Below are positions 870-4,462 of a stretch of DNA of 43,767 bases, in pieces. The notes under the pieces were generated by a model. That model made no database searches, was not told where the DNA came from, and was given only the letters and a program-made list of their open reading frames with translations. The first letter of the stretch is position 1. Every line of letters starts with the position of its first letter. The DNA is from Clostridia bacterium. GTDB taxonomy: Bacteria; Bacillota; Clostridia; Acetivibrionales; JAFADI01. The stretch lies in NCBI GenBank assembly GCA_026417615.1, contig JAOACY010000078.1, positions 1 through 43,767 of the forward strand, read 5' to 3'. The position numbers and the translations under genes are program-made.

Positions 870-898
870 TTGACAAACATTTACTTCAAAGGTATAAT
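870..898 (+). promoter_or_regulatory. Consensus sigma-A promoter for the riboswitch and SH3-NlpC/P60 gene
   Basis: TTGACA at 870-875 and TATAAT at 893-898 are separated by exactly 17 bases, a perfect match to the vegetative consensus. Transcription would start near 905, about 14 bases before the first paired base of the riboswitch aptamer. Confidence 0.85.
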
Positions 899-918: not shown

Positions 919-1106
919 TTCTAAAGCTGAATCCTCTTCAAAAAGAGGTACGGAGGAACCAAAACATGGGGTTAATCCGATCTGGAGGCGAGATTCAGGA
1001 ATTGGGGCAGAAAGCCATTCTAACCTCAAACTCCCAACTTCAAGCCTTCAGAAAGGTAGGGGTGATCCTATTACCCGAACCCGGCAGCTAACTTCGGAAG
1101 CTAGAA
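919..1106 (+). promoter_or_regulatory. ydaO/yuaA-type cyclic di-AMP riboswitch
   Basis: The leader carries the conserved ydaO/yuaA blocks: GAGGAACCAAAACATGGGG then TTAATCC (953-978), and near the 3' end CCCGAACCCGG then CAGCTAAC (1073-1092). A closing stem can be drawn from 919-922 and 925-928 with 1099-1106, leaving a two-base bulge. This class binds the second messenger c-di-AMP and typically lowers expression of cell-wall hydrolases and K+/osmolyte transporters when c-di-AMP is high. The next gene is an SH3-NlpC/P60 hydrolase, the classical target. The AGGAGG ribosome-binding site (1109-1114) lies two bases past the closing stem, and I see no terminator hairpin with a U-run before the ATG. 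Confidence 0.92.
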
Positions 1107-1120
1107 ATAGGAGGTAGAAA

Positions 1121-2065
1121 ATGTCAAAATCAGGAAAGTTGCTGCTAAGCTTTTCAACCGTTGTTTTACTTCTATTTGTATCTACGTCATTTGCTTTTGC
1201 AAATGCTACAAAGAACGGAGTAGTCACGGGGGATGCAGTCAACTTGCGTGCGCAGGCAAACACCTCAGCCGGTATTATAGCTAAGGTTGCCAAAGGTACT
1301 CAAGTTACCATCCTCGAGGAATCAAACGGTTGGTACAATGTAAGCTTGGGCAGTACAAAAGGCTGGATGTCGGGACAGTTTGTCTCTCTGACATCAGGTC
1401 AGGCTGCAACAGGTGAATCTGCCGTCCAGGGCAGAATAATTGCTGAAAGCGTCAATTTCAGAAGCAGCCCCAGCTTATCATCAAAGGTTATAGCCAGGCT
1501 GAATGAAGGAGATCCAGTAAGCGTTCTGGAAAATGCGGACAAGTGGAGCAGGATAAAGACCTCAGCGGGAGTTGAAGGCTGGGTTTATTCGCAGTTTGTT
1601 TCAACAGCTGCAGCAAATGTTTCAAGGTCTGACACAGAGGTGGTAACAAAGCAGGAAGCGTCAAAAGAAGCTGAGTCTGCTGATATAGGCCAGCAGATGG
1701 TGGAGTATGCCAGGAAGTTTCTTGGGGTTCAATATGTTTACGGCGGTGCTTCTCCAAAAGGCTTTGACTGCTCAGGATTTACAACTTATGTGTACAAGCA
1801 CTTTGGCATTTCCTTGAGCCGTGTGGCTGCAGACCAGGCAAAGCAGGGAAAATATGTGGAAAAGGAAAACCTGCTGGCTGGTGATCTGGTATTCTTTGAT
1901 ACCGACGGAGGAAAGGATTATATATGTCATGTGGGCATATATATAGGTGATGGAAACTTCATTCACGCATCCTCCGGAAGAAATTCAAAGAGAGTGGTAA
2001 TAAGCGATTTGTCAAGCGGATTTTATGCAAACGCATATATAACTGCAAGAAGACTTATTGATTAA
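1121..2065 (+). CDS. Secreted SH3-domain NlpC/P60 cell-wall endopeptidase
   Basis: A 314-residue predicted peptidoglycan hydrolase. The N-terminus is a signal peptide (residues 1 to about 29: basic MSKSGK, hydrophobic core, then AFANA), so it acts outside the membrane. Two bacterial SH3 repeats follow (about 32-90 and 104-162; each has VNLR/VNFR, GWYNV-like and GW(M/V) signatures), which probably bind the wall. After a linker of about 25 residues, the NlpC/P60 domain spans about 190-314, with catalytic Cys217 in DCSGF, His270 in HVGIYIGDG and a third polar residue at His282. The family usually cuts the D-gamma-Glu to diamino acid bond of stem peptides. ATG 1121 follows AGGAGG at 1109-1114. 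Expression is expected to respond to c-di-AMP through the upstream riboswitch, and a terminator follows the gene. Confidence 0.93.
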   Translation: MSKSGKLLLSFSTVVLLLFVSTSFAFANATKNGVVTGDAVNLRAQANTSAGIIAKVAKGTQVTILEESNGWYNVSLGSTKGWMSGQFVSLTSGQAATGESAVQGRIIAESVNFRSSPSLSSKVIARLNEGDPVSVLENADKWSRIKTSAGVEGWVYSQFVSTAAANVSRSDTEVVTKQEASKEAESADIGQQMVEYARKFLGVQYVYGGASPKGFDCSGFTTYVYKHFGISLSRVAADQAKQGKYVEKENLLAGDLVFFDTDGGKDYICHVGIYIGDGNFIHASSGRNSKRVVISDLSSGFYANAYITARRLID

Positions 2066-2131: not shown

Positions 2132-4462
2132 ATGAAACGGCCTCTTGTCTTATTTTCCGCAGCTCAGATATTGGGCATAATAACAGGACATTTATTCAGA
2201 ACATTTATATTTGCTGCCATATCGGTTTTCCTGCTTTGTGTATTTGCCGCTGCCATGGACATCAAGAAGAAAGGCATGAGGCTGATTTTTGCATGTACGA
2301 TAATATTTTTCACAATAGGGATTTTTGAATTTTTGCTCTTTGATCTGGTAAATGCCGGCAAATTCAAAGCTTTTGATGGAAAGGAAGCCTTAATAACTGG
2401 TTATTTTGACTCTGAAGCAGACATAAGAGATAACAGGATTCAGTATGTAGTAAGAACAGAGAGTGTGGTCAGCGAAGGAAGAAGCTGTTCAATCAAAGGC
2501 AAGGTGCTGTTCACGACACTGAGAAAGGAAGGAGCTCCAATATACGGTTACGGCAGAAGGGTTGCAATTAATGGACAGCTGAATTTGCCCAAGGGAGTAA
2601 GAAATCCTGGAGGCTTTGACTACAGAAGGTATCTTGCCCAATCAGGTATTTCGGCCCTTGTTTTTGCAAAAGACTATGGGGTGAAGCAGGAGAATTATGC
2701 AAAAAAAGGATTCTTGAATAGCATTGGGATGTCTGTCAGGGACAGAGTTGTAAAGGTTATAGAAAGAAGCCTCCCAAGGCAGCAGGCCGGATTGCTTAAC
2801 GGAATGCTTATCGGATACAGGGAAGGCATGGGGGAGGAAGTTGAAAAAAGCTTCAGTGATGCCGGACTTTCTCATTTAGTGGCGGTTTCAGGAATGAACG
2901 TGGCTTTTATCATAGCCCCTCTTCTTTTTGTTTTTAAAAGATTGAAAATCAGTGATAATATTTCCAATGGCATTACAATAGGGGCACTTGTTTTGTTCCT
3001 TTTTGTCACGGGCTTCTCACCTTCTGTTGCAAGAGCTGTAATTATGGGCATTTCAATCCTGACGGGCAAAATTATCATGCGGGAAACGGATGTTATAAAC
3101 AGCCTGGGGCTGGCGGCAATTATTTTATTGGCATATAACCCGTATACCCTTTTTGATATAGGCTTTCAATTGTCATTTGCGGCGACCTTGTCTATAATTC
3201 TCTTTTATAAAACTATCAGAGAATTTGTTAATTTCAAGTTTATTCCGGCATTTGCCGCAGATGTGCTTAGCGTCACGCTGGCTGCACAAATTGGAGTATT
3301 GCCGGTTACAGCATATTACTTCAATAAGGTTTCAATAATTTCTCTATTTTCAAATATTATAGCGGTTCCCTTGGTTGAAGCCGTTACTGTTCTGGGTTTT
3401 ATTATGGCCGTTATAGGACAGTTCAGCATCGTTTTGTCGCAAATCATCGGCTATATCAATTGTGTTCTTCTGTCTTTCATTTTGCTGGTTTCAGATATTT
3501 CTTCACGGTTGCCCTTTGCTGTTCTTAGAATAGCCACACCTCCGGCACCGGCCGTGCTGCTTTATTATGCCTTGGCTCTTGGCCTGCTGTGGAATGCAAA
3601 GCTTTCAAAAATAAAGCATGTCCGCATTTTTTACTGGTCGTCAGGGGCAGTTATACTTGCTGCTTTATTTGTTGGAAATCTGCTTCCAAAAGGCCTGCAG
3701 GTGACTTATATAGATGTGGGGCAGGGCGATTCCTCACTGGTGAGGACAAACACAGGCAGAGCTGTTTTGATTGACGGAGGGGGAGAATGGGCGGGTGAAT
3801 CGGTTGTAATACCGCTTCTTTTGGACTATGGCTTGACAAAGCTGGACATGGTAATTGCCACACACGGCCATGACGACCATATTCTCGGGTTAAAGCCGGT
3901 TTTGAGTCAATTTGCCGCAGGGTGCCTGGTTTTACCTGATAATCCTGACGATAAGGGCCTTGAGGATTTAATCAGAATTGCAGAAGCAAGGAAAATTCCG
4001 GTAATCCGCTGCAATAAAGGCGACGATATCAGAATCGATAAGGAGACTGCTTTCAAGGTCCTGCACCCTGACGGGGGAAACAGCTTCGAAAAATCTCCTT
4101 TAAACAATAATTCATTAGTGTTAAGATTAAGCTATAAAGATATAAGCCTTTTATTCACCGGGGATGTGGAAAAGGAAGCTGAACAAGCCCTCTCAGGGCA
4201 GTCAAGGGGACTTGAAGCGGATGTCCTGAAGGTGGCGCACCATGGGGCTGATACATCAACCACAGATGAGTTTGTTTCTGCTGTAAGGCCAAAAGCTGCT
4301 GTTATAAGTGTTGGAAGAAACAGCTTCGGTCATCCGGCCTCGTCAACCTTAAAAAGGCTGGAGGAAAGCCGGGTTATATTGCTCCGAACAGATTTGCATG
4401 GAGGCATTTTGCTGCAGTCTGACGGTAAAGGCATTAAGATTAAAAAAACGATTAAAGATTAA
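2132..4462 (+). CDS. comEC: ComEC/Rec2-family DNA uptake channel
   Basis: A 776-residue membrane protein with the full ComEC layout: an N-terminal part with two or more membrane segments and a DUF4131-like soluble loop, a central multi-spanning Competence domain (about residues 210-500, containing HLVAVSGMN), and a C-terminal metallo-beta-lactamase-like domain from about residue 530. That last domain holds IDVGQGDS, LIDGGG, the metal motif THGHDDH near residues 576-582, and HHGAD. In competent bacteria ComEC carries single-stranded DNA across the membrane; the C-terminal domain may degrade the other strand. ATG 2132 is chosen because GGGGAG lies at 2122-2127; the in-frame ATG 2099 falls inside the preceding terminator. 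No comEA or comEB is adjacent, so whether the strain is competent cannot be said. Confidence 0.93.
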   Translation: MKRPLVLFSAAQILGIITGHLFRTFIFAAISVFLLCVFAAAMDIKKKGMRLIFACTIIFFTIGIFEFLLFDLVNAGKFKAFDGKEALITGYFDSEADIRDNRIQYVVRTESVVSEGRSCSIKGKVLFTTLRKEGAPIYGYGRRVAINGQLNLPKGVRNPGGFDYRRYLAQSGISALVFAKDYGVKQENYAKKGFLNSIGMSVRDRVVKVIERSLPRQQAGLLNGMLIGYREGMGEEVEKSFSDAGLSHLVAVSGMNVAFIIAPLLFVFKRLKISDNISNGITIGALVLFLFVTGFSPSVARAVIMGISILTGKIIMRETDVINSLGLAAIILLAYNPYTLFDIGFQLSFAATLSIILFYKTIREFVNFKFIPAFAADVLSVTLAAQIGVLPVTAYYFNKVSIISLFSNIIAVPLVEAVTVLGFIMAVIGQFSIVLSQIIGYINCVLLSFILLVSDISSRLPFAVLRIATPPAPAVLLYYALALGLLWNAKLSKIKHVRIFYWSSGAVILAALFVGNLLPKGLQVTYIDVGQGDSSLVRTNTGRAVLIDGGGEWAGESVVIPLLLDYGLTKLDMVIATHGHDDHILGLKPVLSQFAAGCLVLPDNPDDKGLEDLIRIAEARKIPVIRCNKGDDIRIDKETAFKVLHPDGGNSFEKSPLNNNSLVLRLSYKDISLLFTGDVEKEAEQALSGQSRGLEADVLKVAHHGADTSTTDEFVSAVRPKAAVISVGRNSFGHPASSTLKRLEESRVILLRTDLHGGILLQSDGKGIKIKKTIKD

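Follow-up and report, generated by a model that had tools for sequence, protein, structure and literature searches.

The C. glutamicum nlpC riboswitch has no terminator, and translational OFF control was concluded for it in PMC9960051, the authors of which suggest a CTCC-GGAG pseudoknot with the ribosome-binding site (RBS). Work by St-Onge and Elliot on another member of the group, the S. coelicolor rpfA riboswitch, is recounted in PMC9960051 and PMC10117811. The sequence of the crystallised ydaO aptamer is printed in PMC5393176, in which the pseudoknot is given as 5 or 6 pairs and credited to Nelson et al. 2013. In PMC10907184, ydaO is named as one of the docking riboswitches, in which docking is said to occlude the RBS.

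In this study, we analysed a window of 43,767 nucleotides, the whole stretch of Clostridia bacterium DNA under consideration (GenBank assembly GCA_026417615.1, contig JAOACY010000078.1), in which a c-di-AMP aptamer lies directly upstream of a gene for an SH3 and NlpC/P60 protein. Table 1 lists the features of this locus.

The aptamer, its pseudoknot and the Shine-Dalgarno sequence

The initial annotation had called a c-di-AMP riboswitch here, and the RF00379 model run bore this out, with a match that spans the full model (positions 1 to 134) and scores 77 bits, where the gathering score is 38. Because of the position of the promoter, the transcript is expected to start near 905, about ten bases 5' of the aptamer. 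The source genome has three RF00379 matches in total. The gene next after the NlpC/P60 gene, at 2132-4462, is ComEC-like, with Competence (PF03772) and Lactamase_B matches, and the same window carries a T-box leader (RF00230, 11778-12010, 99.8 bits).

Table 1. Features of the riboswitch locus (window positions)
Feature	Position	Strand	Evidence
Promoter TTGACA-17-TATAAT	870..898	+	12/12 consensus positions
c-di-AMP riboswitch aptamer, RF00379	915..1118	+	cmscan 77 bits, E 2.6e-16
P1 5' strand AGCU	925..928	+	Pairs with 1099-1102, Rfam alignment
Pseudoknot hairpin-loop strand UCCUAUU	1066..1072	+	7 Watson-Crick pairs with 1106-1112; loop-tail matching in relatives
P1 3' strand AGCU	1099..1102	+	Pairs with 925-928, Rfam alignment
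Pseudoknot mRNA strand AAUAGGA, overlapping SD	1106..1112	+	Complementarity to 1066-1072
Shine-Dalgarno (SD) AGGAGG	1109..1114	+	Sequence; ATG 6 bases further on
Gene for 314-aa SH3 + NlpC/P60 protein	1121..2065	+	ORF; PF08239 6.4e-31, PF00877 2e-29

Over all seven positions, the hairpin loop is exactly complementary to the strand that follows P1. Since this helix extends through 1112 and the AGGAGG motif begins at 1109, four of the six SD bases lie within the pseudoknot. An anatomy in which the ribosome landing site is one strand of the aptamer's own pseudoknot is well supported by the sequence. The loop-tail pairing in itself is already known from the crystallised ydaO construct, which served as a positive control and has 8 pairs, CUCCUUCG/CGAAGGAG, at the corresponding places; the Rfam RF00379 consensus line has a similar loop (AcucUuu) and purine tail (aaaGaG). 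Taken by itself, the window locus is only moderate evidence for the pseudoknot, because 213 of 20000 random reorderings of its loop reached the same helix. Among 89 abutting leaders (defined below), an average of 13% of shuffled loops performed as well as the leader's own loop, and such controls are weak evidence, given how readily a pyrimidine loop pairs with a purine tail. The isolated pseudoknot duplex has a predicted energy of -6.0 kcal/mol, compared with -6.3 kcal/mol for the loop hairpin closing on itself; of the 25 distinct loop hairpins of the window's subtype (R1), 23 form five or more local pairs, which differ in kind. We speculate that the self-closed hairpin might be the ligand-free form.

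The initial annotation placed the closing stem of the aptamer against the RBS. The annotated P1 ends at 1102; a further pairing, UUUCU (918-922) with AGAAA (1103-1107), is possible beyond it and had probably been counted as part of the stem. The extension is lost in the nearest relative (L006, judged by eye). The key feature is the pseudoknot and not the stem: the aptamer continues past P1, and its pseudoknot strand overlaps the SD. The same stem would be central if a ligand-stabilised P1 just 5' of the SD excluded the ribosome by steric hindrance and the pseudoknot were incidental. The extended stem would stop one base short of the SD, as this explanation would have it; however, besides its loss in the nearest relative, the extension would compete with the pseudoknot for positions 1106-1107, and we consider a purely steric block very unlikely.

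Terminators and related leaders

The claim that neither a terminator nor a U-run is visible was upheld: a strict scan of 767-2200 returned 0 sites, where 1.0 was expected in shuffles, and a laxer, energy-based scan found no terminator in the 170 nt 3' of the window's aptamer. By both scans the riboswitch lacks the intrinsic terminator of the transcription-terminating ydaO class, and it has the features of the C. glutamicum nlpC type: no terminator is present, and one strand of the aptamer is complementary to the SD. Transcription might be stopped without a canonical terminator if the ligand-bound aptamer or pseudoknot paused or terminated the polymerase ahead of the coding region, perhaps with the help of a factor; for the S. 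coelicolor rpfA riboswitch, which lacks a canonical terminator, c-di-AMP-terminated transcripts have nonetheless been reported in vitro, according to the accounts in PMC9960051 and PMC10117811. We regard such a stop as unlikely, given that neither a U-run nor a terminator is present at the window locus and that nlpC transcript levels in C. glutamicum are given as unchanged in PMC9960051.

RF00379 was present in 56 of the 58 genomes of the window's order, in both genomes of its family and in 49 of 148 genomes sampled from the class. Our comparison used 179 leaders, comprising 66 loci and 113 fetched regions; the order scan supplied its best matches and the class scan loci for 30 of its matches, so that the sample leans to high scores and to one order. 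Seven further fetched regions (L181-L187) were left out, as was one distant relative that came from one further scan. Leaders were termed abutting when the start codon lay at most 12 bases from the end of the RF00379 match, an arrangement found in 92 of the 179, which fall by their tail letters into subtypes R1 (53 leaders, including the window's), R2 (12) and R3 (27). No strict terminator preceded the start in any of the 92, compared with 45 of the 87 non-abutting leaders, in which the lax scan was positive in 76. The lax scan is unspecific, being positive also in 34 of the 92 abutting leaders. In L014, L027 and L030 the positive resembles a real terminator, and these three leaders were therefore taken as misassigned, which reduces the abutting set to 89; the other 31 positives lie, by our own reading, inside or overlapping coding sequence. 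The three leaders are still included in the permutation, SD-in-helix and domain counts given below, whereas the shuffled-loop and helix-score counts use 89.

The arrangement had been thought unusual, a view that we abandon: it occurs in about half of the sampled riboswitches (92 of 179, or 89 after correction), mostly before cell-wall genes, the Rfam consensus itself has the complementary loop and purine tail, and a translational nlpC case without a terminator has been published (PMC9960051). The window switch is thus of a kind common in related bacteria.

The 92 proteins encoded after abutting switches included 53 with SH3_3, 26 with NLPC_P60, 21 with PG_binding_1, 12 with LysM and 12 with Hydrolase_2, in counts that overlap and are drawn from proteins many of which were truncated at about 200 aa. 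After non-abutting switches, 79 proteins were available (the 87 leaders less 8 with no start found), with DapB_N in 40 and SH3_3 in 2. In this non-random sample, therefore, abutting switches tend to precede genes for cell-wall proteins, and switches of the terminator type mostly precede a DapB-like gene. The DapB_N genes after L001 and other terminator-type loci are of an amino-acid metabolism type.

Loop-tail matching and inserted hairpins

In a permutation test, the duplex energy of each leader's own loop and tail was compared with that of permuted partners, for the loop window and for 28 other aptamer windows, using only distinct loop-tail pairs (75 of the 92 abutting and 70 of the 87 other leaders). 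The figures are not probabilities, because shared ancestry contributes to them: own pairs averaged -8.6 kcal/mol against -7.2 kcal/mol for permuted pairs in abutting leaders (z -7.0) and -9.0 against -7.2 kcal/mol in the others (z -8.3), with 0 of 1000 permutations as good in either set and 0 of 5000 in a separate, larger run. The loop window gave the strongest signal of the 29 tested, and an overlapping window at -22 had the same signal; smaller signals appeared at -30 (other leaders, z -3.5), -10 (abutting, z -3.6), 0 (R3, z -2.9) and -38 (abutting, z -2.3). By subtype, the advantage of own partners was modest in R1, to which the window belongs (33 of 1000 permutations as good), and absent in R2 (767 of 1000); in R3, 2 of 1000 permutations equalled it. 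At least three SD bases fell within the best helix in 78 of the 92 abutting leaders (R1, 53 of 53; R2, 9 of 12; R3, 16 of 27), and in the corrected set of 89 the helix score was at least 6 in 64 and at least 5 in 76.

A candidate anti-SD strand in the first hairpin (CCUC, 933-936) was also considered. The corresponding windows pair with the tail at about -6.8 kcal/mol, with z values of +1.0 and +2.5; own partners were no better than permuted ones, and this candidate is therefore without support.

Three leaders (L154, L138 and L165), picked by looking through the non-abutting set, in which ten were inspected closely, have a hairpin between P1 and the SD. Pairing of the loop with the P1-adjacent tail was predicted at -5.1, -7.4 and -4.0 kcal/mol, respectively, compared with -9.1, -10.7 and -9.9 kcal/mol for pairing with the SD region. 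The loops prefer the SD region, and we conclude that the partner of the loop travels with the SD. A purely steric block does not fit these leaders, in which the SD is moved away from P1 while the loop match stays, and a stop in transcription leaves the travelling partner unexplained. Among the ten leaders inspected, L007, L010 and L039 have weaker or different arrangements.

Other platforms were seen in the same survey. In L013, L020 and L021, the pseudoknot tail, GAAAGAGGG, precedes a CCCTCTT-type strand complementary to it, after which comes an SD-like GAAAGGGGA immediately before the gene; as a possible relay platform, the folding aptamer might release the middle strand, which could then cover the SD. 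In L010 (1855-1939), 85 bases separate a c-di-AMP aptamer from an NlpC gene downstream, and the stretch contains CCTCGTA and, later, TACGAGAGG, which includes the SD. These two elements could form an SD-hiding hairpin, which is absent from the computed L010 fold.

Proposed control of translation and described systems

The suggestion that the locus controls translation, or uses the aptamer itself as the mechanism, is the best reading, with the SD forming the 3' strand of the pseudoknot and loop and SD matching in relatives. We think it likely that this is a translational c-di-AMP riboswitch in which the pseudoknot hides the SD, such that hydrolase synthesis is low when c-di-AMP is high. Binding of c-di-AMP would fold the aptamer and stabilise the pseudoknot, and ribosomes would then be unable to start on the NlpC/P60 gene, because the pseudoknot strand holds most of the SD; when c-di-AMP is lacking, the pseudoknot would be weak or absent and the SD accessible. 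The aptamer, the missing terminator, the complementarity, the matching in relatives and its retention in inserted-hairpin leaders are the sequence basis of this proposal. We presume that the ligand binds, that the pseudoknot depends on it, that the switch is an OFF switch and that translation is affected; for ligand dependence and direction we lean by analogy on the OFF behaviour reported in PMC9960051. One diadenylate cyclase domain (PF02457) is encoded in the same genome, which supports the translational OFF reading.

Two predictions tell against a clean picture, the self-closure of the loop hairpin and the fold without the pseudoknot, in which the ligand-free SD is partly paired and so may not be freely open. 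The partner depends on the 3' end chosen: positions 1092-1095 in a fold of 906-1150, or codons near 1169-1173 in a fold of 906-1180. The former pairing, predicted at a probability of about 0.55, would suit an ON switch, in which the core strand ACUUC (1091-1095), a strand rich in pyrimidines across all subtypes, holds the SD until the ligand-folded core releases it. However, the pseudoknot loop, a match for the SD here and in relatives, could pair at once with a released SD, the predicted partner shifts in the longer fold, and the c-di-AMP riboswitches described so far are OFF switches, as stated in PMC9960051; an ON switch is therefore quite unlikely. For the window's order as a whole, it seems somewhat probable that an SD within the c-di-AMP pseudoknot is a standard platform, mainly for cell-wall proteins, with terminators used mainly for metabolic genes. 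The purine-rich strand would offer a ready-made SD, and the inserted-hairpin variants would reflect selection on loop-SD pairing.

In the literature searched, we did not find it stated that the SD is the strand of the crystal pseudoknot, nor did we find a description of leaders with an inserted hairpin or of a division between gene types; an earlier account of any of these in Nelson 2013, Block 2010 or Jones 2014 is possible. The anatomy proposed here gives terminator-less c-di-AMP riboswitches an explicit and testable form: ribosomes land on the same strand with which the aptamer fold is completed, and a separate expression platform is therefore unnecessary. If this is right, translation would be the step at which c-di-AMP restrains cell-wall hydrolases in these bacteria; in addition, loop and SD mutants could be used to test how the nlpC switch of C. 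glutamicum works.

The proposed mechanism is of an already known kind, as indicated by the published nlpC case (PMC9960051) and the docking description (PMC10907184). Like the C. glutamicum nlpC switch as described in PMC9960051, the window switch has an aptamer of the same family, no canonical terminator and an NlpC-type gene downstream; that bacterium, likened here by its published description, belongs to another phylum, and for the window switch we assign both partner strands to the pseudoknot already known from the aptamer, with support from comparison. It shares its aptamer family and presumed ligand with B. subtilis ydaO/kimA (PMC9960051), and its pseudoknot with the related crystallised construct (PMC5393176), but ydaO/kimA acts through a terminator and none is present at the window locus. 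In the preQ1-III and cobalamin docking riboswitches described in PMC10907184, as proposed here, the ligand favours pairing between a loop of the aptamer and the RBS region; however, their aptamers and ligands are different, and in the window the RBS strand lies beside P1, within the stretch modelled by Rfam, with no clearly separate platform.
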